From positions 1-30,287 of the IMG/VR virus record IMGVR_UViG_3300045051_001515: 30,287 nucleotides of DNA, one strand, 5' to 3'. The notes under the pieces are model-generated. The model was not told where the DNA came from, ran no database searches, and saw only the letters and a program-made list of their open reading frames with translations. The position numbers and the translations under genes are program-made. The stretch is from a virus. Positions 1,408-29,150 of this stretch are shown here, one piece after another (within the stretch, counting starts at the first letter, position 1; each line of letters opens with the position of its first letter).

Positions 1408-4400
1408 TTACGGACAAGTGCAATTACCGGAGCTGTCTATGGCCGACGTGCATTTGCTCATATTGCCGGAAGCGTTCAGGCAGAGAGCGCCGCCGGTGGT
1501 GGGCGCGCCTGTGCCCTCTACGCGAATTGTCCCCCCCGATACGTGCAACTTAGCCCCCGGAGCCGTAGTGCCTATGCCGACGTTGCCGCCGAGAGGGTTT
1601 AACTGTAATGCCACGGCAGAGGCATCCATTGACTGAATCCAAGACATACCGGCGGTCTGGTCGTGGCCCATATTGAGGCCGTAGGATTGTGCAGAAGACG
1701 AAGCTGGGTTGCTGTTTTTTGCCCTTGCTTTAAATATAGCCCCTGCATAAACTTCTGCCCCCGAAGTTACGACACCCGTCACCGTCACGCTAGAGGCAAA
1801 GGTGGCGGAGCCGGGAGAAGTTATGCCTCCGTCGGCCAGTATTAAAGTGCTGTCGGTATGCCCGTAACTGTGGTGGTATAGTTTGAAGATACCGGAGCCG
1901 TACCCCTGCTCAAGTTCCGTGTAATAGTTGGGGTCTGCGTAGTAACCATTTATTTTTATTTTGGCCGAGACGGGCGTGGTGTTCGTTACCAGCAAATCGT
2001 TGTTTATCGTCGCGCTGCTCGTCAAAGTGAAAGGGCCGGAGAGGTTCATGTCACCCGTTACGTCTAACTTGGCGAGGGGGGCGGTGTTGCCGAGGCCGAC
2101 GGAGCCTTCAACCAAAAGTCCGTTAGTGGGCGCAGTATTTGCGCCCGAATAGGTGGCCCCAATTACTGCCCCTCCTTCCACATCTAATCTGTTTTGGGGA
2201 GTATCTACTCCTACTCCAACCTTTCCATTGTTGTCTATGGATATTCTATTGTTACCTGTAGTCATCAAGGTCATGCCATTTGCCAAGGCATAATTGTAGG
2301 TTATCCCCGCAGTAGTATTAGAGGCTGGGGAACCAAAGAATATTGCTCTCGCATTAGCCGACGGAGACAATAGTGATAGATAAGTGTTCCCGTTGCTTTC
2401 AAAAGAGGCTATCGTGCCATTCACAGGGGCAACCGTTCCAGCAGAACCATTTACCACATTCAAAAAGGTTTCAGGAGCCGTAGTGCCTATACCGACAGAA
2501 CCCCCCGACACCACCAGCGTGGAACCTCCTACGGAGAAGGAGGAGCCCGTAACCACTAGCGTAGAGGCGGAGATGCCGTAGTTGGCCGTTACGGTCATTG
2601 TTGCGACATGAGAGCCGAGGTTGTCACCCGGAGCCGGAGTTACCGGCAGGTCCGTGCAGGTTAGAACCCCCATAGAGGAGATGTCTGTAACGTACTTGCT
2701 GGCCGCGCACCCGGCGGGCTCGTTGCTTAATGCGACGGCGGAATACGCCAATGAGGCCGTGGCGGCGGTTGTGGACGTGGCTGAATTGCCCGTTATGGAA
2801 AGCGGGTATATCCCGGTAGCGGTGGATTGGATTACCCCCGTCAGGTTGGACCCGTCGCCATAAAATCCATTATTGGCCGTGATAGAGGACGTGCCCATAA
2901 CAGGGCCGTCAAAATATCCGGCAAAGAATTTCTGCGAGGCCGCTATGCCGGACACGGAACCGTAGACGCCGATGGCCTCCTGATTTGCGGCAACGCTGGG
3001 AGCCGAGCCGATAACACCATACACCTTGACGTTGTTGGAGGCCGAGGCTTTACCGGAAACACCGACGTTTATGAGCCCGTTGGAGGCTTCGCCCCATACG
3101 CCATAACTGCCGATGGAGTTGCCGTCGGAGATGTTGGACTTCAGCGCATACGCAGGATTGAGCCCTGTCGCGGGGGTATAGGTGATACCTAACGCCCCCG
3201 TCATCGCGTCCCCGGCCTTTGCGACCTTGGCCGACAGGTCGGCGGCAGTCGCGACATAGAACGTCGCAGGAGCCGAGAGGTAGTCGGTGGGCTTCACGAT
3301 GTAAAACGTGGCCGGGTTTGATAGGTAGTCGGTGGGTTTTACGATATAGAAAGTTGCAGGGCCAGTAAGCACCCCGGCCAAGGTAGCGCCGTTGCCGTAG
3401 TAGGCTGAAGCCGTCATGCTCGACAAGGATGTAACCGGGCCGGCAAAATGGGACTGCGCGGAGCTTGGCGAGTAAATGGAGAAATTATTGGCCCCGGCGT
3501 CGGGGTATTCAATCACCACGGCCTTGTTTGAGGCCGCTCCCTGTGCCTCCACTTTCAGGCCGATATTGGAGGTGCCGCCTACGCCAATGGCGCCCACAAA
3601 TGCGCCGTAGTTGTCCCCGCCGGTCCTGCGGTTGTAAACGTTGAGGTTGGTGTGCGTCCCGGTGACGGCGCCGGAGATGTCTACGTGCAGATCACCGGAC
3701 ATCGTATCGCCGGCCTTAGCCACCTTGCCGTTTAACTCCGTGGTCATCGTGGATAGTTCCACCTGTATCGCCGCCAGTATGGCCTCCAGCGTGGCCGTGG
3801 TATGGACCACGCCGGTCAGGGCCGAGCCATCCAGCGCCGGCAGCGCCCCGGTGAGCTTGCTGGCCGAGAGGGCCGTCAGGGTGGCGTCCCCGTGGGTATG
3901 GCTGTCGTTGCCCACGGTCATAGAGTTATACTTGCCCGTCACGTCACCGCTGAAATCGGTGAGAGGGCCGAGGAAATCCCCGGGGCTCGTCGTGTTGGCC
4001 CGGAGCTTCAGGATTTGCTCGTAGAGGTAGTCGAAGTTGTCGGCGGTGCCTTTGTCCTCGATGATGGCGGGGAGTTCGTTCTGCGCGAGGAGCGGACCCG
4101 GCAAGGAAACCGCCAGCAACAGGGACCCGAGGCCGAGGAACGCGGCGGCGCTCTGTTTGGCCTTGCGGACACCGCCGGCCAGGTACTGCGCGGCGCTCAT
4201 CTTGCGCGGGGCCGCTACAGGGGCAGGCGCGGGGCCCGGCTGGGCCGCCACGGCCGCGGCAGGGGCTACGCGGGGCAATGCCGCGGCAGGGGCCAAAACA
4301 TCGGCCAGCGCGAGATTTAGGGCCTCCGTGAGCGCGGTCTGCGCCCCGGCCTTATTCTGTAAGGGCGGCGGCAGGGCGGCCACCAGCCCCCGGGAGTATT

Positions 4401-6762: not shown

Positions 6763-8049
6763 TTATATCCCCAGCCCCAGCGGGTCGTTATTCGGCATGG
6801 CCGAGGCCGGCATATCCGCCTCGACTATCTGCCCGTTTTTAAGGGTGTAGGTCTTTCCGGAGTAGCCCGCCATCGTCCCGTTTTTCTGGTAGTACCTGGC
6901 GGCTTCCTGTTTGGCCTTGGCCATCATTTCCAGTTCCCCCACGATGGTCGCTACCCGTTTGGCGTTTTCCTTTTCCGGCAGCCGGGGGTCAAAGGACCGC
7001 TTCATCAGGTTCTCGCCCTCCTGCGCGGTGAACTGCGCGCCGAGAGTTTCTTTAAGGGTGCTCTGGATGGTCTTCTCTATCTCCTGCTGGATGGCCACGG
7101 ACTTCATCCTCGCCCTTTCGGGAAGCGCGGAAATAACCGGGCCGGACAGGTTCTCTTTGCCGGCCTCAAGCCGGGCCTGCGCGTTTTTGAGCGTGCTTAT
7201 CTGCGTATTGGCCCGGGCGAATCCGCCGGTAATATAGGCCGCGTAGTCCTTGCCGTAGGCGCGGTCAACGGCTTTCTGCGCCTCGGTAGGTTTGGCCGAC
7301 GGGGTGGAGGAAGCCGCCTGCGCCTTGGCCTCTAAAGCCTTGGCGGAGGCCTGCGTGGCCTCGGCTTTGGCCTCATTGAGCGCCAGCGGGGCCTCGGTCA
7401 TGCGGTTGAGCGCGGCCACCTTGGCGCGCTGGCCGGGGGTAATGTTGATGGTGTCCGGGGTGGTGGAGCGGTTGAACCGCTGGCCTACATCGAAACCGGC
7501 CGCGAGGGTGTCGGGGGTCGGTATCGCGCCGAGGCCGCGCTTGAAGCCGGCGAACGAATCCTCGCGCGCGCCCAGCACGTTCTCGCGGAGGTTGAGCCCC
7601 GGGCCGACAGGGGCGGCCGGAGCCGGCGGCGCCGGGTTGCGGCTGGCGGCCATGACGTAGTTATCCGGGCTGGAGTTCACGCGGGCCGCAGCGTCCGCCA
7701 GCGGTCCGCCCGGAGCGGGGGCCGCGCCCTGCGGTTCACCCTCGGCCATAATGTTCTTGACCCGGTAGGCCTCCATGATGTCCTGCGGGCTCATTCCGTA
7801 GCGGGCCACAAAGGCGGCGTCGCTGGCGCGCTCGGCCTCAAAATTGCGTATCTGGCCCCGGTTCTGCGGGTTGAACCACGAAATACCGGCCCCGCCAGGC
7901 TCGCCGGCTCCGCCCACCGAGGGGAGGCTGTAGCGCATGGCCGCGGCGTCCCGCTCGGCGGCTATCCGCTCGCGGTCGTACTTGGCGCGCATGAGGCGCT
8001 GGAAAGGGTCGTTGCCTATCAGGTTCTGCGTTTCGTCATATCCGGGCAT
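6763..8049 (-). CDS. Internal virion / DNA-ejection protein
   Basis: 428 residues, RBS AGGAGCC before the ATG. The N-terminal half is Pro/Gly/Ala-rich and low complexity. The C-terminal half (about 260-410) is helical, with a segment reading LGAQFTAQEGENLMKRSFDP then a stretch ending YYQKNGTMAGYSG, a pattern I recall from phage internal core/ejection proteins. The extreme C-terminus is short and hydrophobic (PLGLGI). It is one of three consecutive Ala-rich helical proteins after the nozzle gene, matching the trio of ejection proteins in P22-like phages. The exact role of each is not determinable here. Confidence 0.6.
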   Translation of the reverse strand: MPGYDETQNLIGNDPFQRLMRAKYDRERIAAERDAAAMRYSLPSVGGAGEPGGAGISWFNPQNRGQIRNFEAERASDAAFVARYGMSPQDIMEAYRVKNIMAEGEPQGAAPAPGGPLADAAARVNSSPDNYVMAASRNPAPPAPAAPVGPGLNLRENVLGAREDSFAGFKRGLGAIPTPDTLAAGFDVGQRFNRSTTPDTINITPGQRAKVAALNRMTEAPLALNEAKAEATQASAKALEAKAQAASSTPSAKPTEAQKAVDRAYGKDYAAYITGGFARANTQISTLKNAQARLEAGKENLSGPVISALPERARMKSVAIQQEIEKTIQSTLKETLGAQFTAQEGENLMKRSFDPRLPEKENAKRVATIVGELEMMAKAKQEAARYYQKNGTMAGYSGKTYTLKNGQIVEADMPASAMPNNDPLGLGI

Positions 8050-8059
8050 GGTTGGCTCC

Positions 8060-8626
8060 TCAATAAACGGGGTTCTTGGTCAGCGAAATATAGAACGAAT
8101 CCAGCCCGCGCTTGCGGCGGTCCAGTAACGGGTTGGAGAACTGCCCGGGGTCATAGGCTTTTATCGGGCGGAATGTGCCCCCCGACACCTGCGCGCGCGG
8201 CGTACCGGACATGGGGGCCGCGTAGGCCACAGGCGCCGGGCCGGGGCCGCTCATAAGGCCGGAGGGCTGGATATCCGGGGAGGCGGGCAGATCCGCGCCG
8301 CCCGCGGCTTCCGTGCCGAGCAGCTGGTCCGGCTTCCAATCCCGCGCAAGGGCCGCGCTGATGGCGCGCTGGCGGGCCGCTTCCGCCGCGTTCATGCGGG
8401 CGTTGTTGGCCGCGTAGGCCGACAGGCTCCCGTCCCCGCGGAAAGCCTCCTGCCGGGCGTTGTTGATGTCCGTGACCGCCTGCGCCCGCTTAAGGGTAAA
8501 ATACGGGTCGTCGGCCTCGGAGCCGGTGGCCTGTATGTTCCGCATAGCGCCCTCGCCGGCCTGCGCCACGAGGCGGGAGTACCAGTTGTCGTTGCGGATA
8601 TCGTTATAGCCGTATCGGTTCGCCAT
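8060..8626 (-). CDS. Small internal virion protein candidate
   Basis: 188 residues, with GAGGG before the ATG. The N-terminal 100 residues are helical and Ala/Arg/Asn-rich (ARQEAFRGDGSLSAYAANNARM). Residues 100-150 are Pro/Gly/Ala-rich and unstructured. The C-terminus is basic (DRRKRGLD) and ends SLTKNPVY. It sits between the nozzle gene and the larger ejection candidate, so it is probably the first of three internal or ejection proteins, or a small tail-chaperone-like protein. No family recognised. Confidence 0.55.
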   Translation of the reverse strand: MANRYGYNDIRNDNWYSRLVAQAGEGAMRNIQATGSEADDPYFTLKRAQAVTDINNARQEAFRGDGSLSAYAANNARMNAAEAARQRAISAALARDWKPDQLLGTEAAGGADLPASPDIQPSGLMSGPGPAPVAYAAPMSGTPRAQVSGGTFRPIKAYDPGQFSNPLLDRRKRGLDSFYISLTKNPVY

Positions 8627-13207: not shown

Positions 13208-14374
13208 TTATTCGGTCACCCCGTCGAAGTAACCGTGCATCTTCTCCTGGGGCACCTTAATGGTGCACTCGGAGAGGATTTCCTCGGACTTGCCGTCCAC
13301 GCCGGCCGTCTGGGTGTCCATCATGTGCATCATGTAGCGGTTCGGGAGGTGGTGGACTTCCAGGTTCGGGATGTCGAGGACGATGCCCGTGCCGGCCAGG
13401 CCGGTGAGGTCGTCGAGGCTGTCGTTCTCCAGCAGCGGGCTGTAGGCGATGTCGAGGTCACCGAAGGGGGTGATGTAGCTCGACAGCTTGAGGCCGTAGC
13501 TGGGGTTGAACGCGGCGGGCGTTATCTTGTTCTTGGCGAACCCGTTGATAACGTTGATGACCGTGCCCGAGCCGACCAGCAGCTTCTTGTTGGAGCCGAA
13601 GCGGAAGGACTTGCGGAGGAAGTTGTCGAACTCCTCGTTGGTCATCTCGCCGCCCATGTCGGTCACGTTCGTGGAGATCCAGCGCAGGACGCCGCGCATG
13701 GTGCGGTGCTCCTTGCTGTCCACGGGGCCGGAAGCGGTGAACGACCGCTGGCCGACGATGTACTTCTTCTCCAGCTCGCGGGCATGCTTGATGATGGCCT
13801 TGGCGCGGTCCTTCTCGGGGTCGCTCTGGCCGTACACCTCGGAGTTCATGGCGGTACCGGTCCATCCGATGTCCGTCTTGGTTATCTCCATGTAGTTGTA
13901 CGGGTTGCTCTTGAGGGTCATCAGTATCGGGGAGGCGCCGGCGCCTTCCTCCGAGCTGTCACCGATGATGAAGAGCTGGTCACCCACGGACGCGGCGGCG
14001 GCGGCCTCCTCGCCCACGGCGCGGCTGATGGCCACGGTGGTAGAGGTCGGCGTCGCGGTCACGCGGACGATTTCCTTCTTGTTGATCTGCACGAGCATGT
14101 TCTTGGCGAAGTAGCTGTAGTTCGTCACTATCATGCTGGTCGCGGCAGCGGTGAGGGCGGTGGCGAGAACGTCGAACTGCGCGGGCAGCGAATCCTCGAA
14201 CCACTCCACCTTCTTGTTGCCGGACGGAACGAGCCTGCCGGCCGCCTTGGTCATGATGACCGTGAGCGGGGCCTTGTCTATCTCGAGCTCGTGGATTATG
14301 GGGGCCACGGAGCGAACCGCGCGGCCTTCGGTGGCCTGGTTCGCGCTGGTCTGAACGCCTGAACGCATCGTCAT
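13208..14374 (-). CDS. Major capsid protein, SU10/DUF5309-like HK97 fold
   Basis: 388 residues. The RBS AAAGGAG seven bases before the ATG is one of the best in the window and fits high expression. The N-terminus (GRAVRSVAPIIHELEIDKAPL then WFEDSLPAQF) and the later PYNYMEITKTDIGWTGTA and KKYIVGQRS segments match the SU10-type/DUF5309 major capsid family as I recall it. A Gly-rich FNPSYGLKLSSYITPFGDLDI segment near the C-terminus fits an A-domain. It follows the scaffold gene directly. The product forms the icosahedral shell; no in-line protease gene is seen, and the scaffold is separate. Confidence 0.88.
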   Translation of the reverse strand: MTMRSGVQTSANQATEGRAVRSVAPIIHELEIDKAPLTVIMTKAAGRLVPSGNKKVEWFEDSLPAQFDVLATALTAAATSMIVTNYSYFAKNMLVQINKKEIVRVTATPTSTTVAISRAVGEEAAAAASVGDQLFIIGDSSEEGAGASPILMTLKSNPYNYMEITKTDIGWTGTAMNSEVYGQSDPEKDRAKAIIKHARELEKKYIVGQRSFTASGPVDSKEHRTMRGVLRWISTNVTDMGGEMTNEEFDNFLRKSFRFGSNKKLLVGSGTVINVINGFAKNKITPAAFNPSYGLKLSSYITPFGDLDIAYSPLLENDSLDDLTGLAGTGIVLDIPNLEVHHLPNRYMMHMMDTQTAGVDGKSEEILSECTIKVPQEKMHGYFDGVTE

Positions 14375-15498: not shown

Positions 15499-15843
15499 TC
15501 AAATAGTCTTGGCCTTCTCGGCTTTGTGGCGCCGCTCCAGTTCCTTGGAGGCGTTCTCGCCTTTTACCATCAGCCGGCGGCAGGCGGTTTCTATGCCGGC
15601 CAGGCCCCGGCGCAGGCCGCTGTTGTAGGCGTTGAACAGGGCCACGGCCTCGGTGTCGGTGGTCTTGGTCGGGTTCCATTCCCCGTCCGCCTTGGCCTGT
15701 TCGCGCTGGGCGTCCAGCTCGGGCTTGAGCCGTCGCGTGTAAAATTCGTTGAGGCGCAGGAAGTTGTCGGCCTCTATGCCGGCGCCCTGTATCACTATCA
15801 GGCCCTGAATGGTCAGGTCTTTGAGTTCCGGGTTCTTAAGCAC
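15499..15843 (-). CDS. Hypothetical protein between portal and scaffold
   Basis: 114 residues from a GTG start with GGGAGG upstream; it overlaps the portal 3' end by eight bases. Predicted mostly helical, with KDLTIQGLIVIQGAGIEADN near the N-terminus and a charged C-terminus (ASKELERRHKAEKAK). No cysteines or membrane segment. Co-transcribed with head genes, so perhaps an assembly factor or minor head protein. Family not recognised. Confidence 0.7.
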   Translation of the reverse strand: MLKNPELKDLTIQGLIVIQGAGIEADNFLRLNEFYTRRLKPELDAQREQAKADGEWNPTKTTDTEAVALFNAYNSGLRRGLAGIETACRRLMVKGENASKELERRHKAEKAKTI

Positions 15844-17980
15844 TTGCGCCTCCCGTTCCCATCTGCGCGCCCATATTGGCCGGCAGGTTCTGGCCCATAT
15901 TCAGCGGAGCCGGGAGGGATTTCTGCCCCTGCGCGGAGCGCGTGGCCTCCTCCTGCATGAACTGCGCGGCAGCGGCGCGGGGGTCGCTGGTGATGTCCAT
16001 GATGTCGCGCCGGGTCTGCTCGATATGGTTGACCAGCCGGACCATCAGCTCGGGGTCGTTCTCGCGGTTGTTCTCCAGCATCTGCGCCTGGAGCGTGTGC
16101 TTTATAAGGTGCCAGCTCTTGTTTTCCTTGGGGTGCGTGTTGACCGGCACACCCTGCAACATGAGCTCGTATTCCTGCTCGGGGTCCATCGAGCCGTCGG
16201 GCGGGATGAGGAGCTTGGAGGAATCGCCCTTGCCGAAAGCCTCGTTAACAAGGCGCATATACTCGCCGCCGTCTATCTTGTCCCACTCGGGGTTGTTCTT
16301 CTGGGCGGCGGCGTAGTTGATGGCCTGCGAGAGAAGGACCAGCGCCTGGTTGCGCTGAACCTGCGTGTCACCGAAAGAGGGGTCATCCGAGGCCACATAC
16401 AGGAAGCCCTCGCCGTCTGTGTCTATGTCCTCGCGCTTGTAAGACACCGCGCCGATGCCGCCGGTGAACTTCTTGAACGGCATGGGGTCGAACATGAATT
16501 GTTCGTAGAGCCAGTACATCTCCTCCATCTGGTTCATGGTCTCGCATTGGTCGGTGTTGACCATGAGCTGAAAGCGGCGGGCCATCGTCTGCTGCACTTC
16601 CATCAGGCCGCCGTAGGTGGAATGGAACGGGCGGGTGCCCATGACGCCCGGGGTCATCTCGGCCACGCTGACCACGTTCTCTATGAGGCCCTGTACGCCG
16701 CTCTGGGCGGTCAGCATGGAGCCTATCTTGTCCTGCTTGGCCACCGGCATGATGGCGCGGGAAAGGTCCACCCCGGAAGCGGCGCGCAGGCCGCCGCCGC
16801 CCCGGCTGTCAAAGTCCTCGGGGTAGGGGAACGCGTCCTCGACATAGGCCACCATCTGATTGACGGTGCGGAACCAGTCCTGCATGGCGAGGCTGTGGAT
16901 ATCGGAGAACTCGTTGAGGCTGTCGAGGATAGGTTCCAGCGCGCCCATGCCGTAGATGCTATGATTGGAGGGCGTGTAGTAGCGGGCGCGGACCTTGAGG
17001 CCCGGCTTGTGGTAGATGTCCTTGACGTGCTGGATGAGGTAGGCGCCGTTGGCTACCACTATCTGCTCCCGGCTGGTCCGCATTATCATCAGGTGGACGG
17101 CCGGCACGTTGTCGTCCTTGTCCTTGGCGGTGTTGGAGGATATGCCCTCAAGCTGCTGGCGGAAGCTCTCCACGCTCTTGTTGTCCTCGGGGAAAGTGGG
17201 GCGCACGGAGATGCCGCGGGCTATAAGGGCCTCTATGGCCACCAGGTCATAGACCGGGACCTGGTTGCCTTCTCCGTCTATGTAGGTGGCTTTCTTGAGG
17301 TCCTCCACGGACTTGTAGTCCACGGTCTCGATTATCCACTTGAGGTCCTTGACCCGGAGTATGCCGGGCTGCGGGAACACGTTGAAGATGGACGGGAAGC
17401 GGGTCTGGTAGCCCACCTTGACCGGGAATTTATGCGCCACGAGCTTGTAGCCCTTAAAGGCTATCTTGCGGGCCACCCGCGCCACGGAGGACACCACGGG
17501 TATCTCCATGCTGGCCACCTGCTCCATCTTGGTAGTGACCCAGCGGAAGCCCTCCTCGTATTCGGAGGCCCACTCGTCGAACTCCCACTCGGTGCCGCAG
17601 ATCACGCGCTCCCGGGTGGCGTCGGTGTAGCCGAGCCGGTACTCCGGGGAGCCGAAGTACGAGCGGCACATGTTGTAGAAGTTGCCGGCCTTGCGGAGAT
17701 GGTCGTCGCGCTTGGGCTTCACCTCTATGGTGAGCTTGCCGAGCACGGTCTGGGAGATGCGGCTGACGATGTTCTCCACCAGGCCGTAGGCGAGGGCTAT
17801 CTTAATGGACCAGTCGGAGGAATCGGCGTCATCGCGCTGGGCGCGGTACTCTTTGTAGAGGCGCTTAAACAGCTCGTGCTTCTCGTGGTAGAAATCCCGG
17901 CTCAACAGGTACTTGGTGCGGACGTCCTTTATCAGTTCGTCCTTCTTGGCTTCGGAATGGGTGGAGAGCAGATTTTCCAT
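15836..17980 (-). CDS. Portal protein, P22/SU10-like
   Basis: 714 residues. The start is the ATG at 17980 (MENLLSTHSEAKK), one base after the upstream stop, with AAGG ahead of it; a longer in-frame extension merely shadows the upstream gene. The size and features match podovirus portals of the P22 type: helical N-terminus (LLSRDFYHEKHELFKRLYKEYR), clip/stem region with NVFPQPGILRVKDLKWIIE, a central YYTPSNHSIYGMGALEPI, and a Gln/Met-rich C-terminal barrel/crown-like tail (FMQEEATRSAQGQ). It forms the dodecameric DNA entry vertex that docks terminase and adaptor. It is separated from terL by about 2 kb of small genes. Confidence 0.9.
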   Translation of the reverse strand: MENLLSTHSEAKKDELIKDVRTKYLLSRDFYHEKHELFKRLYKEYRAQRDDADSSDWSIKIALAYGLVENIVSRISQTVLGKLTIEVKPKRDDHLRKAGNFYNMCRSYFGSPEYRLGYTDATRERVICGTEWEFDEWASEYEEGFRWVTTKMEQVASMEIPVVSSVARVARKIAFKGYKLVAHKFPVKVGYQTRFPSIFNVFPQPGILRVKDLKWIIETVDYKSVEDLKKATYIDGEGNQVPVYDLVAIEALIARGISVRPTFPEDNKSVESFRQQLEGISSNTAKDKDDNVPAVHLMIMRTSREQIVVANGAYLIQHVKDIYHKPGLKVRARYYTPSNHSIYGMGALEPILDSLNEFSDIHSLAMQDWFRTVNQMVAYVEDAFPYPEDFDSRGGGGLRAASGVDLSRAIMPVAKQDKIGSMLTAQSGVQGLIENVVSVAEMTPGVMGTRPFHSTYGGLMEVQQTMARRFQLMVNTDQCETMNQMEEMYWLYEQFMFDPMPFKKFTGGIGAVSYKREDIDTDGEGFLYVASDDPSFGDTQVQRNQALVLLSQAINYAAAQKNNPEWDKIDGGEYMRLVNEAFGKGDSSKLLIPPDGSMDPEQEYELMLQGVPVNTHPKENKSWHLIKHTLQAQMLENNRENDPELMVRLVNHIEQTRRDIMDITSDPRAAAAQFMQEEATRSAQGQKSLPAPLNMGQNLPANMGAQMGTGGASA

Positions 17981-17981
17981 G

Positions 17982-18341
17982 TTAAGCCTTGCTGGTGCCC
18001 TCCACGCCGCGGGCCTCCCGGTCCTGCCGGCGCAGGCGCAGGGCGTCAAGGGCGGCCTCCAGCGCATGTACGGCGGCCTCGTTGTTCGGGCAGGGCACCT
18101 TGCGGTTGAGGCCGGCTACCATCAGGCGGGCGGTCTCTATGAGCGTGTCCACCTGGCAGCCGTTCACGCCGGCTTCTTTGATGGGGCCGTCCTGAATTTT
18201 AAAGGCCACGATGTTGTGTTCGTGGTCTATGAGTATCGGGGAGCTCTTGAAGTCGTGCGGGGTGGTGGTGTCGTCGGTGGCGGTTATCTCGCCCACGCGG
18301 TAGCCGTCTATGATCGGCAGGTTGCGGAGGGTCTTTATCAT
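17982..18341 (-). CDS. Acb2/Tad1-domain-like protein, candidate cyclic-nucleotide sponge
   Basis: 119 residues; the ATG overlaps the upstream stop (TGATG) and the stop is one base before the portal start. Residues 52-61 read GPIKEAGVNG and residues 110-116 ARGVEGT, preceded by a helix (EAAVHALEAALDALRLRRQD). From memory these are the two hallmarks of phage proteins carrying the Acb2/Tad1 hairpin domain. Characterised members (Acb2 against CBASS, Tad1 against Thoeris) bind immune cyclic nucleotides or cyclic ADP-ribose isomers and act in the cytoplasm as oligomers. The residues before the hairpin differ from the usual FACREN-type sequence (here VPCPNNEAA). Family assignment is by motif only; ligand unknown. 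Confidence 0.7.
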   Translation of the reverse strand: MIKTLRNLPIIDGYRVGEITATDDTTTPHDFKSSPILIDHEHNIVAFKIQDGPIKEAGVNGCQVDTLIETARLMVAGLNRKVPCPNNEAAVHALEAALDALRLRRQDREARGVEGTSKA

Positions 18342-18721
18342 CAGGCCCGCCCGCCTTTGAGGTTGCGCTTGAGCCGGAAATCCTCGGTCATGCCGTGCTG
18401 GGAGGCCTTGTACTGTTCCTCCTGCAACTTCTCCTTGCCGCGGAACAGGTCAGCGAAATAGCGGCGGCTCTTGGCGGCCAGGATGTCGGTGATGGCGGGG
18501 CATTGGTGGCGGGCTTCAGCGCGCTTGAGTATCCACTCGCGCAGGCCCTGCTCGCTCATGGTGTCGGGGTTGCCGCGGAAGTGCATGTGCACGGTCCCGC
18601 CGCAGGTTTTGCATGTGAGCGTGGCCTCTACGGCGTTCTTGAAAGACTGGAAGGTCCCGCTGAAAAAGGCGCGGGGCGGGCGGTCAAACCCGAACTTCTT
18701 TGTGAAGGCATTGCTATCCAT
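18341..18721 (-). CDS. Hypothetical Cys-containing protein, terminase-portal island
   Basis: 126 residues, starting MDSNAFTKKFGFDRPPR. Residues 37-40 are CKTC followed by GG, with H45/H47 (VHMHF) nearby and C74 (HQCPA), a possible small zinc-binding site. The C-terminal half is strongly basic and helical (ILAAKSRRYFADLFRGKEK), suggesting nucleic-acid binding. There is no Shine-Dalgarno sequence before the ATG, and a G-rich tract lies 28-60 bases upstream. It is coupled to the Acb2/Tad1-like gene by a one-base overlap. Function unknown. Confidence 0.65.
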   Translation of the reverse strand: MDSNAFTKKFGFDRPPRAFFSGTFQSFKNAVEATLTCKTCGGTVHMHFRGNPDTMSEQGLREWILKRAEARHQCPAITDILAAKSRRYFADLFRGKEKLQEEQYKASQHGMTEDFRLKRNLKGGRA

Positions 18722-18832: not shown

Positions 18833-19018
18833 CTATTTGTGGGCTTTTTTCGGCAGGGTGCGGCGCTTGTAGAGGATATTGTAGACGGTCTTATCTTCCA
18901 GCTTGTAGAGCTGGGCTACTTCCTTGGCGGACTTGCGGTCCTTGCGGCGGGTCAGCAGGCGGATGATCTCCATGTCCCGCTTAAGCGTTTCCTGTTTGGC
19001 TATGGCGCGCAGGGTCAT
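18833..19018 (-). CDS. Small helix-turn-helix DNA-binding protein
   Basis: 61 residues from the ATG at 19018 (MTLRAIAKQETLKR), which has GAGGTG upstream and overlaps the lipoprotein stop by ATGA. Residues 25-50 (KSAKEVAQLYKLEDKTVYNI) form a helix-turn-helix of the resolvase/Mor or sigma-region-4-like kind, flanked by Lys/Arg. With no other domain it could be a small regulator of late genes or of the adjacent island. It is more basic than the other small ORFs here. Confidence 0.7.
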   Translation of the reverse strand: MTLRAIAKQETLKRDMEIIRLLTRRKDRKSAKEVAQLYKLEDKTVYNILYKRRTLPKKAHK

Positions 19019-19428
19019 TTCTTCACCTCTTTTGAACACGCGCTCTCGCAGGGGAAGGCCGCTATGCCGTTGAGCGTATAGCCGGAGGGTTGCGCGGGTT
19101 TCTTCGCGGGAACTACTATACAAGGCCGAAGCTCTCCCTCAAACGTCCTTATTGAACAATCAGTAATGCCCGGCGTTTGAGCCACAAATACCGGGGGGCC
19201 TTGCTTTATTCCCCCTTTGCGCTCCTTTAAAGCCTGGCGCCGTGCCTTGGCCTCCTCAACCGCCGCCGCGTAGCCGTCCAGGTAGCCCTGTCCGTAGGCC
19301 ATCTGCTCAAAGGCGGGGGCCACAGCGGAGGAACGCCGGAACTGGACGGAGGCGCAACTCACAAGCGTGAACATGATAGGGAACACGATGCCGACCAGCA
19401 TAAACACGGATTTCATTCTCCAGGTCAT
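19015..19428 (-). CDS. Phage-encoded lipoprotein
   Basis: 137 residues. The ATG overlaps the upstream stop (ATGA). The N-terminus is MTWRMK, then a hydrophobic run (VFMLVGIVFPIMFTL), then lipobox LVSC with Cys at residue 25, so the mature protein should be diacylglyceryl-modified. The mature part has a helical YLDGYAAAVEEAKARRQALK segment and later four cysteines (TDCSI, RPCIV, FPCESACS) that could form disulfides. Phage lipoproteins in such non-structural spots often block superinfection at a receptor (Llp/Cor type) or serve as o-spanins. This is too large for a typical Rz1 and far from the lysis genes, so exclusion or envelope modification is a reasonable guess only. Confidence 0.7.
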   Translation of the reverse strand: MTWRMKSVFMLVGIVFPIMFTLVSCASVQFRRSSAVAPAFEQMAYGQGYLDGYAAAVEEAKARRQALKERKGGIKQGPPVFVAQTPGITDCSIRTFEGELRPCIVVPAKKPAQPSGYTLNGIAAFPCESACSKEVKK

Positions 19429-19915: not shown

Positions 19916-21349
19916 CTATTTTCTCCGCGCACAATGCGGGACGTAAATCTTGCGCTGGACCGCCGGAGCGTGGTTGACCATGCGCGGCTTGTCAGGTATG
20001 GCGAATGTCAGCGCGTAGGCGTCAACCTCGTCCGGGCTGCACTTGATGATGGCTTTAACCTGGTCTTTCTCGGTCACGCGCTTCTTGCCGTTCTGGAAAT
20101 AGTAGGTGTGGGCCAGCAGTTCCTTGCGGAGCTGGGGCGAGTTAGGCAGACACCCGCCGCGCTTAATGTGGTCCACGAACTCGCAGATTATCTCGCTGCG
20201 CTTGTTGAAGTACATGTCCTTGGTGGCGGCCGCGCTGAAGTTGACCGGGATGGGCTTGAACTTGGCGAGCTTAAGCGAATCCTCCGGGCTGGAGCCGTAG
20301 CCGCCAGTCACATCGAGGAATATCTCGTCAGCGCCGCCCCACGCCGAATATACCTCCGCCACCTTGGCGGCTATCTGGGGGCCGTCAGCGTTACGCAGGG
20401 ATTCGGCCGGGAAGTAGGCCAGGCCCTGCCGGCGGGCTATCACGGTCCTGTCATCACCGAAGCGCGCGCAGTCCGTGCCGATGCGTTTTTCGGCGTAGGA
20501 CACATCCGGAGCGTGGCGCATCATGGCCGCGTCTATCTCCTCCACGCTGATAAGCGAGTTAAGGCCCTGCGGCGGGAACTGGCCGAGGATGTAGGCCATT
20601 ACCCAGGGGTCGGTGCGGCCGTAGGCGGCTATCTGCTCCTTGGCCCACGCAAGGTCTATACGGGGTGAGCGGTTGGGGTCGTCCGGATCTCCGGTAATCG
20701 TGATGGAGGCCCATTTGTCGGCCAGGGTGGAAACGGCGGCGTAGAGCATCCCTATCATGCTGGTGGGGTTGCCGGCCTGCACTATGCGGCCCCATTTGCA
20801 ATTGGAGAGGGCCTGCTCGGCGCTCTTTAGCACGGCAACAGGGATATCACCGCTTTCGTCTATTAGGAACAGGACATACTCGCTATGGATGCCGGACAGC
20901 GTGCGGCCCTGCTCCTCCTCATTGGCCGTCTTGGGCCAGCTGCGGGCCGCAAGGAACCAGGTCTCGGGATGGTCTACTGCGAATATACGGGTATTGGTCC
21001 AGGTGAACTTCTTGAGCAGAACGGGGGAACGCTGTTGCCACTTGTTGAACTCGGCCCAGAGATTATCGCGGAGGTTGTCGGCGGTTACGCTCACCACGGC
21101 GCCCTTGGGATGCTCTCCCTGCCCGCCCAGGCACATCAGGAACCACCAGCCACACCACGCCAGCAGGGCGCTCTTGCCGGGGCCGGCGCAGGCCTTGAGG
21201 GCCAACCGGAAGCGCGCTACGCTCCGGTCAGCGAACGCCACGAGTCCGCGGCGCTGCCATTCATCGGGTTCTGTGTGGAAATTGTCGCGAACGAACTTAA
21301 CCGGGTCACGGCGCCATTCAAGAATAGTGTTGACGGCGGCTTGGCTCAC
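19916..21349 (-). CDS. terL: Terminase large subunit (DNA-packaging ATPase/nuclease)
   Basis: 477 residues from a GTG start that overlaps the terS stop (GTGA). ATPase domain: Walker A-like CAGPGKS at 54-60, Walker B FLIDESGD at 161-168 with D164/E165. Nuclease domain (RNase H-like): D293 in GTDCARFGDD, D346 in FLDVTGG, and the late acidic motif SPDEVDAYALTFA at about 445-456. Length is usual for TerL. With TerS it cuts concatemers and pumps DNA through the portal. The C-terminus is short and basic (HCARRK). Confidence 0.95.
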   Translation of the reverse strand: MSQAAVNTILEWRRDPVKFVRDNFHTEPDEWQRRGLVAFADRSVARFRLALKACAGPGKSALLAWCGWWFLMCLGGQGEHPKGAVVSVTADNLRDNLWAEFNKWQQRSPVLLKKFTWTNTRIFAVDHPETWFLAARSWPKTANEEEQGRTLSGIHSEYVLFLIDESGDIPVAVLKSAEQALSNCKWGRIVQAGNPTSMIGMLYAAVSTLADKWASITITGDPDDPNRSPRIDLAWAKEQIAAYGRTDPWVMAYILGQFPPQGLNSLISVEEIDAAMMRHAPDVSYAEKRIGTDCARFGDDRTVIARRQGLAYFPAESLRNADGPQIAAKVAEVYSAWGGADEIFLDVTGGYGSSPEDSLKLAKFKPIPVNFSAAATKDMYFNKRSEIICEFVDHIKRGGCLPNSPQLRKELLAHTYYFQNGKKRVTEKDQVKAIIKCSPDEVDAYALTFAIPDKPRMVNHAPAVQRKIYVPHCARRK

Positions 21350-22587: not shown

Positions 22588-22781
22588 TTCTTCCCGCCTC
22601 CTTCCACAATGCCACACGCCGCAGATATCACTCGGTTGGCCATCTCTTTGCTCCTCGCCTCGAACTCGGCCAGCAGAGCCGCCCGGAAGCGCGGCGCGTT
22701 CAGCAGGTCCTCGAACACCTGCGCTTGGGCCTGATGTTCTACGTCTTTAGCGTGGACGCGGAATATCTTGTCGGGATTCAT
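22584..22781 (-). CDS. Hypothetical small protein
   Basis: 65 residues, MNPDKIFRVHAKDVEHQ at the start. Its ATG overlaps the stop of the Gp37/Gp68-like gene (ATGA); the longer in-frame ORF upstream is only a shadow of that gene. Predicted all-helical and charged (VFEDLLNAPRFRAALLAEFE), with no membrane segment. Function unknown. Confidence 0.6.
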   Translation of the reverse strand: MNPDKIFRVHAKDVEHQAQAQVFEDLLNAPRFRAALLAEFEARSKEMANRVISAACGIVEGGGKK

Positions 22782-23677
22782 GCCGGCACCCCGTTGTGTT
22801 CCACGCCGTCCAGCAGACGGCCGGTATTGGCTTTCCCGTAGCGGGCAGGGCTGTAGTCTATAACCGTTCCGCCAGCTCCCTGCACCGGGCCCACGCTCTG
22901 CGCATACTCCAGAAATTCCAGGCCAGGCTCGCATTGGTCAGGCGGCGCGTACTCCCCCCATTGCTTGAACATGAACGGCACAACCGAGGCGGCGCACTGG
23001 TCGCGCAGAGCGCGGGGCCAGGATGGGTGCATGGGGCGGGCGTGAGGGCCGCTCTCGCCTCCGGCTATGACCCAATCAAGGCCAGAACCAAAGTCTTCCG
23101 CGCGGTGTATGCTGGACATGCAGGTTTCGAACTCGCTACGCAGATGTACACGGCAAACCTGGCCGCCCATCCACCACGTTAAATCCACCGGCCCCAGCAG
23201 CGGCTCACAGCTCACGAAGAGCACCCTGGCCGGCACCTGCAGCAGGAGCGGTATCCGTTTGTTGGCCTGCTCCTGGTTCTCCACGGTCACGCCCAGCCAC
23301 ACGTTGTCCGGCAGACCCAAAGCCCAGGACGTGCCCGCCAGCATGGGCTTGATGTTCTCCGGGCGCTTCGTCAGCAGCAGATAAGTATGCTGCGGCGCGT
23401 GGCGCATCGTGCGGATAGCGTCGTGCCTGTCCGCCCGCAGAATATCCGCGTGGAAGAAGTCGGACAGGGAGCACACGAAGATGCGCTTCGGCTCCTTCCA
23501 GGTGAGCGGCGCGTGGAACGTGCCAGTTGCGGCCCGCACTACCTTGCTGAAATCCCGGCCGCAGCGCTTCGCCCAGCCCTCGGCGTAGCAGTTGTCGCAC
23601 GCCGGCGAGACCTTGGTGCAGCCTATAAACGGATTCCACGTCGCGTCAGCCCATTGTATTTTCGTCGTCTTAGCCAT
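22778..23677 (-). CDS. Phage Gp37/Gp68-family protein (DUF5131, three-Cys motif)
   Basis: 299 residues from the ATG at 23677 (MAKTTKIQWADATWN), with GGGAG upstream and a TGA/ATG overlap with the previous gene. The family signature is clear: IQWADATWNPFIGC, then cysteines C20, C27 and C30 (CTKVSPACDNCYAE). Further conserved blocks are FVCSLSDFFH, LLLTKRPENI, LGVTVENQEQ, FVSCEPLLGP, VIAGGESGPHARP and FMFKQWGEY. The C-x6-C-x2-C cluster recalls a radical-SAM-like iron-sulfur site, and the family is known as a partner of TcmP three-Cys proteins, but its chemistry is undefined. No TcmP partner is visible in this window. Confidence 0.88.
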   Translation of the reverse strand: MAKTTKIQWADATWNPFIGCTKVSPACDNCYAEGWAKRCGRDFSKVVRAATGTFHAPLTWKEPKRIFVCSLSDFFHADILRADRHDAIRTMRHAPQHTYLLLTKRPENIKPMLAGTSWALGLPDNVWLGVTVENQEQANKRIPLLLQVPARVLFVSCEPLLGPVDLTWWMGGQVCRVHLRSEFETCMSSIHRAEDFGSGLDWVIAGGESGPHARPMHPSWPRALRDQCAASVVPFMFKQWGEYAPPDQCEPGLEFLEYAQSVGPVQGAGGTVIDYSPARYGKANTGRLLDGVEHNGVPA

Positions 23678-24060
23678 CAGTTTCTCCCTTTTGCGTTCAC
23701 CGCTTTTATTTCCTCGTTCAGCCATGCGACCACCTGGACCGCGGAGATCTGCGTGTACGGCCCGGCCTCGCGGCGGACCTTCCGGCGTACCCGGCGCAGC
23801 GCATCCTTGGCCTCGGCCCGCTCGTGCCACTTCACCAGTTGCACGGCGCCGCGCTCCACCTTGGCGCGGTAGCCCGGCTGCTTTGCGTCCATCTCGGCCA
23901 GAAACTGGTCGTAGGAATAGTGTTTTCTTGGCAGCCGAGGCTTTGGGTCATAACCCCTATATGCATGACACTTTGACTTGTTGCGCGACATGCACTTTTT
24001 AGCCTCACAATACACGCCATCCCCCAGAACTAAATCCAGTTTTAAATGCTTGCACTTCAT
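23677..24060 (-). CDS. Cys-rich hypothetical protein preceding the Gp37/Gp68-like gene
   Basis: 127 residues from the ATG at 24060, with AGGAGG six bases upstream and ATGA overlap. N-terminal cysteines C3, C18, C23 and C31 (MKCKH, VYCEAKKCMSR, SKCHAY) could form one zinc or metal site. The rest is highly basic and helical (ALRRVRRKVRREAGPY, then AVQVVAWLNEEIK), suggesting DNA or RNA binding. It is coupled to the three-Cys protein downstream, so the two may work together; no family recognised. Confidence 0.65.
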   Translation of the reverse strand: MKCKHLKLDLVLGDGVYCEAKKCMSRNKSKCHAYRGYDPKPRLPRKHYSYDQFLAEMDAKQPGYRAKVERGAVQLVKWHERAEAKDALRRVRRKVRREAGPYTQISAVQVVAWLNEEIKAVNAKGRN

Positions 24061-25632: not shown

Positions 25633-26379
25633 TTAGCTTTCGGCAGGGGTAAGGTACTTGTACCGCCTGGCCGGTTTGGACGCAATAGCGGCCCCGCCGC
25701 GCTCCAAATTGGCGGCTTCCCATGTGCGGACGGCGGCTTTCCAGTCTTTCATGGGGTTCCGGCCCACTTTCCAGCCGTTAGCCTCATAATGGGCCAGCCA
25801 CTTCTCGGGGTTGACCGAGCCCCCCCGCTCCGCGCAGTATTCCCTCACTTCATCCAAAGTGGGGCGCTGGAACGCGACAGCGTTCCTCCCCACACCCCTC
25901 TTATTCCCCTTCTTATCTTCTCTACTCTTATCTACTCTTATCTGGGGTGTGGTACGCACAGGGCTACCCTGTGGTAACCCTGTGGCTACCACGTGGCTAC
26001 CCTGTGGTAACCCTGTGGTAACCTCGCTATAACTCTTTTGAATACCGCGCAGGAGCTCGGGTTTTGAGGCCAGTTTATACCGCAGGAACTCCCCAGCATG
26101 CTCCCACCAGTTACGCAGGCGTAGCTCGGGTTTTTCCTCCACGAACCGGGCCTCTATCAGCGCCGCCATGAGCCGGGGGCCATCCTCGGTGTCGCAGGCC
26201 GCGCCTATTTGTGAGGCCGTGAAGGAGCACAGCCGCCCGTCTATGGCGTAATCCAGGCACCACCACCACAGGCGGTGCAACTTGCCGAGCGTGGTGTCTA
26301 AATCCCACCCCATCGCCTTCATTAGCGACAAGGTTTTAGGGTGGCGCTCTAATTCTTGATATGACTTAATCCAGGCCAT
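25633..26379 (-). CDS. Phage replication initiator / replisome organiser
   Basis: 248 residues; TAATG overlap with the methyltransferase. N-terminal part (1-115): WIKSYQELERHPKTLSLM, then a Trp-rich LHRLWWWCLDYA, and a winged-helix-like section (CSFTASQIGAACD), as in phage replication proteins. A low-complexity polar linker (about 119-165) follows. The C-terminal part (168-245) has RPTLDEVREYCAERG, VNPEKWLAHYEANGW, then KDWKAAVRTWEA, a tail common in phage initiators of the lambda O/DnaD-related kind. The linker DNA contains tandem 11-bp repeats, a likely origin. It should bind the origin and recruit replicative helicase, probably the host's since no DnaB or DnaC is seen. Confidence 0.8.
   Translation of the reverse strand: MAWIKSYQELERHPKTLSLMKAMGWDLDTTLGKLHRLWWWCLDYAIDGRLCSFTASQIGAACDTEDGPRLMAALIEARFVEEKPELRLRNWWEHAGEFLRYKLASKPELLRGIQKSYSEVTTGLPQGSHVVATGLPQGSPVRTTPQIRVDKSREDKKGNKRGVGRNAVAFQRPTLDEVREYCAERGGSVNPEKWLAHYEANGWKVGRNPMKDWKAAVRTWEAANLERGGAAIASKPARRYKYLTPAES
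25899..25943. promoter_or_regulatory. Pyrimidine/AT-rich tract next to the iterons, candidate unwinding element
   Basis: The plus strand here is almost purely C/T with regular TTA steps, including two direct 10-base copies of TCTACTCTTA (25921-25940) and related CTTATC repeats (25909-25919). It borders the 11-bp iteron array and contrasts with the GC-rich surroundings, as expected for a DNA-unwinding element. It also codes for the polar Lys/Arg/Asp linker of the initiator. Confidence 0.5.
25964..26023. repeat. Tandem 11-bp iteron array, candidate replication origin
   Basis: Five contiguous 11-base units start at 25964, 25975, 25986, 25997 and 26008: CTACCCTGTGG, TAACCCTGTGG, CTACCACGTGG, CTACCCTGTGG, TAACCCTGTGG, then a partial TAACC. 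At a larger scale this is a 33-base direct repeat encoding TGLPQGS twice. An 11-bp period places each unit on nearly the same face of the helix, as in iteron origins. It lies in the linker-coding part of the initiator gene. Confidence 0.75.
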
Positions 26380-27266
26380 TATTTAACCTCCGCGTATAAA
26401 AATCCATCCGCAAGTTTATGGCTGGCTTCTATCAGATTTTTCTCTGCCTGCGCGTAGTAGCTGTCTTTTAACTCTATCCCCACAAAGCGCCTGCCTTGCT
26501 CTATAGCTGCATACCCCTCCGAGCCTATGCCGGCGAAAGGGGATAACACTATATCGTTAGGGTTGGTCCAAAGTTTAAGCGCCCGGTGGATCACCTCTAA
26601 TTGAAGCGGGCATATGTGTTTTTCGTCTTTTTCGTCGCGGGCAGATATTCGTTGGAGCGTATCGGACGGGTTAATATCCATCCATATCGGGCTGGCATAC
26701 TGCTGCCAGAGTTTTACCGAGAATGTCTCATTGGTGTGGGTCACGCGCTCCGGATTGTCTCCCGGCTTCCGCATTGTTACCAGATAGTCGGGGATTCCCT
26801 GCCTGCTCATGCAGCTGTCTTTTTTTATCTGCTTATGCAGAAGCCCGAGAGCTTTAGTTCGCTGCATGGCGACTACCGGGTCTTTCCAAATGCAGACCTC
26901 GCTATGGTAAATCCAGCCCGCATCCGTGAACATCCGTATCAACTCTCCGCGGAAGTCGCGAATCCCTATAATTCCGTCGGTCTGTTTGCTGGTGGGCAGG
27001 TTCATACAGTGGAAGGACAACAGCCGTCCAGGGATGGTAACGCGCAATAGTTCCCCCACCAGATAGCGGAAATGGTCGTAGAACTCCGAGTGGGTCTTGC
27101 AGTTGCCCATGTCCCTCTCGCTGTTGCTGTAAACGTAGAGGCTGGCAAACGGCGGGCTGAACACGGAAAAGTGGATGGAGCTGTCGGGAATGCCCTTTAT
27201 CACCTCGCAACAGTCCCCCTGGTACAGACTGAATTTGTCGGTTATCTTCTGGTTGAGTATCTTCAT
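26379..27266 (-). CDS. Site-specific DNA methyltransferase, beta class (probable N4-cytosine or N6-adenine)
   Basis: 295 residues from the ATG at 27266 (MKILNQKITDKF), chosen for AAAGGAG upstream; an in-frame start 39 bases earlier lies within the helicase gene. Motif IV is SPPF at 37-40, motif I FAGIGSE at 244-250, followed by FVGIELKDSYYAQAEKNL. Order IV, target domain, I defines the beta class. SPPF rather than DPPY favours N4-cytosine, though adenine enzymes with SPP also exist. It acts on phage or host DNA in the cytoplasm, perhaps to evade restriction. It is tightly linked to the helicase upstream; no cognate restriction enzyme is adjacent. Composition is more AT-rich than the head genes. 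Confidence 0.88.
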   Translation of the reverse strand: MKILNQKITDKFSLYQGDCCEVIKGIPDSSIHFSVFSPPFASLYVYSNSERDMGNCKTHSEFYDHFRYLVGELLRVTIPGRLLSFHCMNLPTSKQTDGIIGIRDFRGELIRMFTDAGWIYHSEVCIWKDPVVAMQRTKALGLLHKQIKKDSCMSRQGIPDYLVTMRKPGDNPERVTHTNETFSVKLWQQYASPIWMDINPSDTLQRISARDEKDEKHICPLQLEVIHRALKLWTNPNDIVLSPFAGIGSEGYAAIEQGRRFVGIELKDSYYAQAEKNLIEASHKLADGFLYAEVK

Positions 27267-27267
27267 G

Positions 27268-28650
27268 TCATTCTCCTTTTTCGGTCTTAATCCACGCTGG
27301 GACAATCATGCTCTTATCCGGGCAGTAGGATTTATCCATCACCACAGCGGATGCGATGTTCTCTTTAACGTGCTTGCTGGTGTGGTCCACCATTGCGGCC
27401 AGCATCTTCAAGGCATCTTCCTCTTTGCGCTTGATATTCGCCACCACCGCCCCCTCGGCCTCGCTGGTGATGACATAGACATCAACAGGGTATTTCTGCC
27501 CGAATCGCCAACATCGCCTCACGGCCTGAAAGTATTGCTCGAAGCTGTCGGAAAGGCCCACAAAAGCCATCTTGTTGCAGTTCTGCCAGTTCATGCCAAA
27601 GCCAGCGATGGATGGCTTGGTGATGAGAACCCGGACATCCCCGCTTGAGAATCCGAGCATGGAAGATTCCTTGAACTCGTTATCATCCGCGCCCTTTACC
27701 TCCACGGCTCCGGGTATGGCCTTCCGTAGAGCCTCGCTCTCGGAGTTGAGGTCGCACCAGACAAGGAACTGACCCTCGGAGGATATGACCTTTTCCGCGC
27801 ACAGGTTCACCCGCTCGTCAAGACTGTCGCGCCTGGCCCCACGCCGCTCTTCAAGGGTCTGCGCTTCCATCGCGAAAAGGAACTCGCCAGATGATCTGCT
27901 TGGCACTACTACGCTATGGATGTTGAGCGGCGGCAGGTTGAACCTATCATCAGAATATCCGAGGTCAGAGGGCTTGTTTAGGATAGCGGCCCAGCTGGCG
28001 CACCATTGCCAGAATTTATCCTCGGCGTGTCCCTTCAACCGCCACTTGGAAGTGTCTCCCCCGTCGTGGACAAAGAACATGGACAGCATCTCCGTCCGGG
28101 TCATAACATTCAGGAACTCGGCGTGATTCCCTAATTCCATAAAGTCATTGGGGGCAGGGGTCGCGGAACACGCCAACTTATAAGGGGTGTGTCTGAAACT
28201 GTTCACCAGCATATCCCTTGTTGAGCTGGAAAACGATTTAAGAATACTGCTCTCGTCAAGAACTATGCCCACCCATCCCCCTGGCGAGAACTTCTCTAGT
28301 CGCTCATAGTTGGTGATGGAGATGCCGGGCTTCACATCCTCCTGTGACTTGCAGTAGTGTATGTCCAGCCCCAACTTCTTGCCCTCGCGTATGGTCTGGG
28401 CAGAGACGGCCAGGGGGGCGGCGATTAACACATCGCCCCCGGTCTTTTCGTTCACTCGGTGCGCCCATTCCAACTGCATAAGAGTTTTCCCCGTGCCTGT
28501 CATAGTGAACAGGGCGCACTTCCCCATCTTCAACGCCCAGCGCACAAGATCCCGCTGGTAGTCAAAAAGAATAGGAGACAGTTCTCCGCAAGTGAACCCA
28601 CTAGCAGCGGTGGTGAACTGTTTGGCTTTTATAAAGTCCTGATATCTCAC
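27268..28650 (-). CDS. SNF2-like superfamily 2 helicase/ATPase
   Basis: 460 residues from a GTG at 28650, chosen over a TTG six bases earlier because AGGAGG lies seven bases ahead of the GTG; GTGA overlap with the upstream gene. Motifs in order: a Q-like FDYQRDLVRWAL, Walker A TMTGTGKT (about 49-56), DESS in place of DEAH (132-135), CSATPAP (161-167), GFGMNWQN, and motif VI QAVRRCWRFGQ. The arrangement is that of phage SNF2-type helicases. The gene just downstream is a methyltransferase, a pairing common in phages. It might remodel nucleoprotein for methylation, replication or recombination. Confidence 0.9.
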   Translation of the reverse strand: MRYQDFIKAKQFTTAASGFTCGELSPILFDYQRDLVRWALKMGKCALFTMTGTGKTLMQLEWAHRVNEKTGGDVLIAAPLAVSAQTIREGKKLGLDIHYCKSQEDVKPGISITNYERLEKFSPGGWVGIVLDESSILKSFSSSTRDMLVNSFRHTPYKLACSATPAPNDFMELGNHAEFLNVMTRTEMLSMFFVHDGGDTSKWRLKGHAEDKFWQWCASWAAILNKPSDLGYSDDRFNLPPLNIHSVVVPSRSSGEFLFAMEAQTLEERRGARRDSLDERVNLCAEKVISSEGQFLVWCDLNSESEALRKAIPGAVEVKGADDNEFKESSMLGFSSGDVRVLITKPSIAGFGMNWQNCNKMAFVGLSDSFEQYFQAVRRCWRFGQKYPVDVYVITSEAEGAVVANIKRKEEDALKMLAAMVDHTSKHVKENIASAVVMDKSYCPDKSMIVPAWIKTEKGE

Positions 28651-29150
28651 TCGCAATCCTCCTCAAAAAGCATTAATTGTCCATCTTCAATAAAATCTTC
28701 CGTCTCTATCGCTTCCGCCGGCGTCTCCCACAGGTGGACGCCGTACACCGCGGCAAAGGCCTCGTTGACCTCGCGCACGTTCCTGAACTCCAACGCCTTT
28801 ATCGCTTCCGGGTTTATCTGCAGCGCCTCTCCGGAAAGAATGGCGTCCATTATCATCTCACGCCACGCCTGGCCGATGCTTATAAAACACGCATATCTAT
28901 CCTGCCACGTCACGAACAAAACGAACTCATCCTCCGACAACTCCCACGGCTTCTCCCCGGTGACTTTCTGCACCATCTCCGACGTGATGTCCTCCAAAGG
29001 GAACCGCTCGGCCTGGTCATAGTGGAACGGGGCTAAAGTCTGATTTTGCGCCGACGCGGCCATGACCCGGCGCAGAAGCTCCGCGCCTCGCTCCGTGGGG
29101 TCATTTGGAAGCGGTGTATGATGGAGAGCGCACATCCTGCTTTTATTCAT
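28647..29150 (-). CDS. Hypothetical protein upstream of the helicase
   Basis: 167 residues, acidic toward the C-terminus (ETEDFIEDGQLMLFEEDCE). Residues 50-110 contain GEKPWELSEDEFVLFVTWQDR and a helical AWREMIMDAILSGEAL. The gene overlaps the helicase start by GTGA and lies four bases after the small membrane gene. No known motif is recognised. The acidic C-terminus could indicate a protein partner of the helicase or a DNA mimic, but nothing stronger. Confidence 0.65.
   Translation of the reverse strand: MNKSRMCALHHTPLPNDPTERGAELLRRVMAASAQNQTLAPFHYDQAERFPLEDITSEMVQKVTGEKPWELSEDEFVLFVTWQDRYACFISIGQAWREMIMDAILSGEALQINPEAIKALEFRNVREVNEAFAAVYGVHLWETPAEAIETEDFIEDGQLMLFEEDCE

Follow-up and report, generated by a model that had tools for sequence, protein, structure and literature searches.

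Background

Tad1 sponges sequester gcADPR, CDNs and CTNs (PMC12043709, PMC11025887). The pocket that takes CDNs is the gcADPR pocket; it is lined by conserved loops and includes the C-terminal tail, and cyclic trinucleotides are held at the trimer interface (PMC12043709). Tad1 consists of strands followed by two long helices, Acb2 of a short helix plus a hairpin (PMC12043709). CmTad1 has been employed for gcADPR capture (PMC11025887), and the Tad1 of phiKZ blocks both CBASS and Thoeris (PMC13282480).

The DNA analysed here is a virus record of 30,287 bases, designated 'the window' over its whole length. An earlier note had proposed that one of its small genes encodes an Acb2/Tad1-type sponge. 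Profile searches, profile-profile comparison and predicted fold back this proposal and narrow the family down to Tad1, of which the protein is a new member that carries a recurrent variant of helix 2.

A divergent member of the Tad1 family

The tad1-like gene lies at 17982..18341 on the minus strand (stop codon included) and encodes 119 aa from an ATG start. It was identified as an ORF and characterised by PHROG and PDB matches, a family profile, an AlphaFold2 model and profile-profile comparison. Both motifs attributed to the product by the earlier note, GPIKEAGVNG and ARGVEGT, are found in it. Residues 51 to 63 read DGPIKEAGVNGCQ and contain the GPIKEAGVNG loop (residues 52 to 61; 18159..18188, minus strand) ahead of helix 1, and residues 110 to 116 form the ARGVEGT C-terminal tail (17994..18014, minus strand). 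Both were delimited from the sequence and the family alignment.

A phmmer search of the PDB with this protein returned Tad1 (8kbb, E 1.6e-7) and phiKZ gp184 (E 1.5e-5), and PHROG 2428, whose function is unknown, was matched at E 2.2e-18. In a scan of viral contigs, relatives were found to be encoded by 57 contigs; the peptide GVNGCQVD was one of the search patterns, and its invariance is therefore partly an artefact. Taken together, these matches and relatives put the resemblance above chance level. An alignment of 43 sequences (A1) was built from these relatives, and its profile matched CmTad1 (E 2.8e-17), phiKZ gp184 (E 1.6e-10) and CbTad1 (E 1e-7) in the PDB. In profile-profile comparison, the family scored 99.7% (E 3e-25) against a small Tad1 set made up of SBSphiJ7 Tad1 and two uncharacterised phage homologues. 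A family member used as query also retrieved the annotated, experimentally identified Tad1 gene of SBSphiJ7. Outside viral contigs, a search of plasmids gave no match, and among 35 candidate stretches of genome contigs two encoded relatives, both on short MAG contigs (3.4 and 4.1 kb).

The hairpin profile itself gave a divided answer. Searched singly against Pfam and NCBIfam, the window sequence matched no family and did not reach the gathering cut-off of PF24729, which a CmTad1 fragment, used as positive control, does match. At the level of the family, 20 of the 43 relatives matched PF24729 at E up to 1; of two relatives examined for the cut-off, one (L035) was above and the other (L036) just below it. 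The window's row forms a long branch on the family tree, which indicates that it is divergent.

The predicted structure bears out the helical hairpin that had been expected. The AlphaFold2 model (pLDDT 85.7, pTM 0.78) shows a short helix, strands at residues 14-18, 36-39 and 44-47, and helices at 61-81 and 85-111, which make up a long hairpin. This is the Tad1 architecture, with antiparallel strands at the N-terminus and then two long helices, although three rather than four strands of at least three residues are predicted. As modelled, the fold thus fits the description of Tad1 and not that of Acb2. Foldseek alone found no significant match in the PDB, and Tad1 surfaced only in a second look with VIA-align. 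There, the top five rows were all CbTad1 or CmTad1 (Z 7.9-8.3, 29-30% identity over 57-66 residues), unrelated helical hairpins came next (Z 7-8), and coverage was mainly of residues 49-119. In BFVD, several of the top matches were named Acb2/Tad1 hairpin proteins. The family match is convincing because the fold match is combined with sequence; the fold taken alone is weak.

Membership of Acb2 was considered and rejected. T4 Vs.4, which we take to be the Acb2 of T4, itself matches PF24729 but scored 2.9% against the family in profile-profile comparison, and N-terminal strands are predicted in the window protein, unlike Acb2. Assignment to Tad1 rather than to Acb2 is therefore supported.

Conserved residues of the presumed pocket and proposed action

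An alignment anchored on CxxN places N87, R104 and R108 of the window protein opposite N92, R109 and R113 of CbTad1, and L78 opposite F82. These four CbTad1 residues presumably contact gcADPR, and are reportedly given as such contacts in the 2022 Tad1 paper. N87 is present in all but one of 48 relatives (47), and no relative lacks either arginine; more broadly, N87, R104, R108, R111, E114 and G115 are each retained by all or nearly all of the 48. The position of F82 is occupied by leucine in the window and in 43 of the 48 family members.

The protein very probably mops up nucleotide signals that trigger bacterial anti-phage immunity. It would act as a Tad1-family sponge with a small N-terminal beta-sheet and a C-terminal helical hairpin, and would assemble, like known Tad1, into a hexamer. 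Pockets between subunits would hold glycocyclic ADP-ribose produced by Thoeris TIR proteins, and the same pockets might take CBASS cyclic nucleotides. Held without being cleaved, the signals would be kept from the immune effectors. We have good confidence that the gene encodes a Tad1-family sponge as proposed, homology, fold and the conservation of the presumed gcADPR contacts being drawn from sequence and model, and the hexamer, the ligand binding and the action during infection being inferred.

A helix-2 variant that recurs in the family

The earlier note had singled out residues 82 to 90 (VPCPNNEAA) as unusual in lacking a FACREN-like stretch. The remark was correct, and the variant proved to be recurrent. 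The variable block at the start of helix 2 (residues 84 to 103, CPNNEAAVHALEAALDALRL; 18033..18092, minus strand) replaces the canonical CRENxxAITKLxEALMWLxx. The arginine of CREN is present in 22 of 48 family members and absent in 26, including the window. A T-K pair, seven and eight residues past this arginine, occurs in 21 of the 22 proteins that have it, and in none of the 26 that do not (Fisher p 1e-12, without correction for descent). Mean identity over residues 88-103 is 63% in the class with the arginine, versus 32% in the class without, and the two classes are conserved to a similar degree in the flanking segments (36-82 and 104-116).

Changes of class were counted on a tree built without the variable block, most branches of which were poorly supported: at least 12 changes were needed on the best tree, and the well-supported branches left four independent pairs (p 0.125), too few for significance. 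In nearly all tree pairings the T-K pair tracked the CREN class. The block thus has the appearance of a unit whose parts are linked and which has been altered repeatedly.

Individual genes illustrate this diversity. Two relatives, at L018:7995-8363 and L030:3162-3530, are near-identical over their first half, up to the hairpin, differ in the helix-2 block and share their last residues, as if the block alone had been exchanged or had diverged. One phage, L037, has a canonical copy at 7848-8255 and, at 3968-4306, a second, divergent Tad1-like ORF of 112 aa (QPGPRSIFGDQG), with LPCEQN and REVEGT.

By its position, the variable block could be part of the trimer interface at which cyclic trinucleotides are held. 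Replacement of the first half of helix 2 may change which signals the protein binds; we tentatively infer that it would probably alter a second site, or the range of ligands, more than the gcADPR pocket. A loss of CBASS binding cannot be deduced from the block, because phiKZ Tad1, which is also without the canonical form, blocks CBASS and Thoeris. Proteins in which the CREN arginine and the T-K pair have changed together are natural variants that could be used to find the role of this segment.

Genomic context

The tad1-like gene is located between the terminase genes and the gene for an SU10-type major capsid protein (13208..14374, minus strand), on the same strand as the structural genes; the terminase large subunit gene (terL) is at 19916..21349, minus strand, and both landmarks were taken as context. 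The upstream ORF (18341..18721, minus strand) encodes 126 aa and overlaps the tad1-like gene as TGATG; its product is basic, with a CxxC and a third cysteine, and no relatives were detected among phages or viral contigs. Downstream, the TAA of the tad1-like gene is separated by 1 nt from the ATG of a 714-aa ORF (15836..17980, minus strand). The coupling to a basic, cysteine-containing partner and to the ORF below was thus as previously described, but the identification of the latter as a portal gene found no backing by similarity. Pfam gave nothing at E 0.1, PHROG a single weak match of unknown function, and no convincing match was obtained in the PDB, in the phage collection or with hhalign against the portals of relatives. 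Relatives of the ORF were not found in viral contigs or phages, and a single-sequence AlphaFold2 model (pLDDT 35) neither supported nor refuted the identity. It is presumed to be, probably, the portal on the grounds of size and gene order, with terL on one side and the major capsid protein gene on the other.

Other genes of the window include, in the interval from tad1 to terL, two overlapping small ORFs (18833-19428; 96 and 137 aa), and elsewhere a 350-aa ORF at 22778-23830 matching DUF5131 (PF07505, E 2.8e-87) and PHROG 2045, and an N6/N4 DNA methylase ORF adjoining an SNF2-type helicase ORF (26379-28656).

Among 32 relatives with a detectable terL, 15 had the tad1-like gene within 5 kb of it on one strand, a count biased by short fragments. 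In two relatives (L002 and L007) the tad1-like gene comes directly before terL, and in the six relatives examined terL is succeeded by genes for a portal or head-tail adaptor. From the position of the window gene in the packaging module, late expression or virion carriage of the tad1-like protein is plausible.

Alternative interpretations

The leucine at the F82 position, common to the window and 43 of 48 family members, could point to a sponge specialised for CBASS, whose gcADPR pocket, deprived of its aromatic residue, would mainly take cyclic di- or trinucleotides. The range of CDNs does differ between Tad1 homologues (PMC12043709), and phiKZ Tad1, likewise without the CREN arginine and the T-K pair, blocks CBASS as well as Thoeris. 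We nevertheless consider such a specialisation rather unlikely. The presumed polar gcADPR contacts are conserved, and as CDNs and gcADPR share one pocket in Tad1 (PMC12043709), sequence cannot separate a CBASS-specialised protein from one that takes gcADPR.

The gene order raises another matter, that of delivery, which is compatible with a Tad1 sponge: the protein might be made late from a packaging and portal operon, packed into the virion and injected, to act before phage genes are expressed. In phiKZ, Tad1 (gp184) is carried in the virion and injected (PMC10449902, PMC13282480), and it is a chain of the solved structure entry 8y6v; the gene in the window lies downstream of terL and ends 1 nt before the portal-like ORF, and the arrangement in relatives described above points the same way. 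Packaging cannot be read from gene position, however; gp184, of 230 aa, has a long N-terminal extension without counterpart in the window protein, many of the related genes are far from terL, and some other phage Tad1-type genes adjoin recombination genes. On balance, carriage in the virion appears unlikely here. Still more doubtful is a broader scheme, in which small podovirus-like phages would have two interchanging forms of Tad1, the helix-2 half tuning the choice of signal and the copies in the packaging module being virion-carried and injected. The same position, together with two Tad1-type genes of Bacillus phages annotated as putative structural protein, might instead indicate a head structural or assembly protein derived from the Tad1 fold that has lost nucleotide binding. 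This seems very improbable: those annotations carry no stated evidence, and conservation is strictest in the presumed ligand pocket and the tail, not in the general hairpin core.

A Tad1-family sponge thus remains the reading we prefer. With it, a large set of proteins from environmental phages joins the Tad1 sponges; in its divergent form, this set mostly escapes the Pfam hairpin model. Because the gene is next to terL and the presumed portal gene, it can be tested whether Tad1 is delivered by the virion more widely than in phiKZ, where this is known.

Comparison with described sponges

T4 Acb2 (Vs.4) shares the helical hairpin and the Pfam family PF24729 with the window protein, but has neither GPIKExGVNG nor the RGVEGT tail, is too short for a strand domain, and differs by the low profile-profile score given above (2.9%). 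CmTad1 (PDB 8kbb, 8kbc, 8kbd), solved with cAAA in 8kbc, is much closer, at about 30% identity: its hairpin has GPIKExGxNG, the N, R and R residues and an EGTS tail. Unlike the window protein, it keeps the CREN and ITK block and has phenylalanine at the F82 position.

The top structural match of the window model was CbTad1 (PDB 7uav, 7uaw, 8smd, 8kbf), which also combines beta-strands with the hairpin and whose N92, R109 and R113 have equivalents in the window. It differs by an SREN block with TH, and by a loop that reads KGARKEEKS where the window has DGPIKEAGV. The Tad1 of Bacillus phage SBSphiJ7 is the experimentally identified member of the set that scored 99.7%, and has, like the window protein, a PH.F stretch ahead of the strands. 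Its CREN/ITK block, an insertion between strands and its origin in a large Herelleviridae phage set it apart.

Finally, phiKZ Tad1 (gp184) is a 230-aa protein of a jumbo phage, with a long N-terminal region, and its injection has been demonstrated (PMC10449902). It is similar to the window protein in its C-terminal domain, where it has tyrosine, not phenylalanine, at the F82 position, and it too is without the CREN arginine and TK (CEEN...NS).
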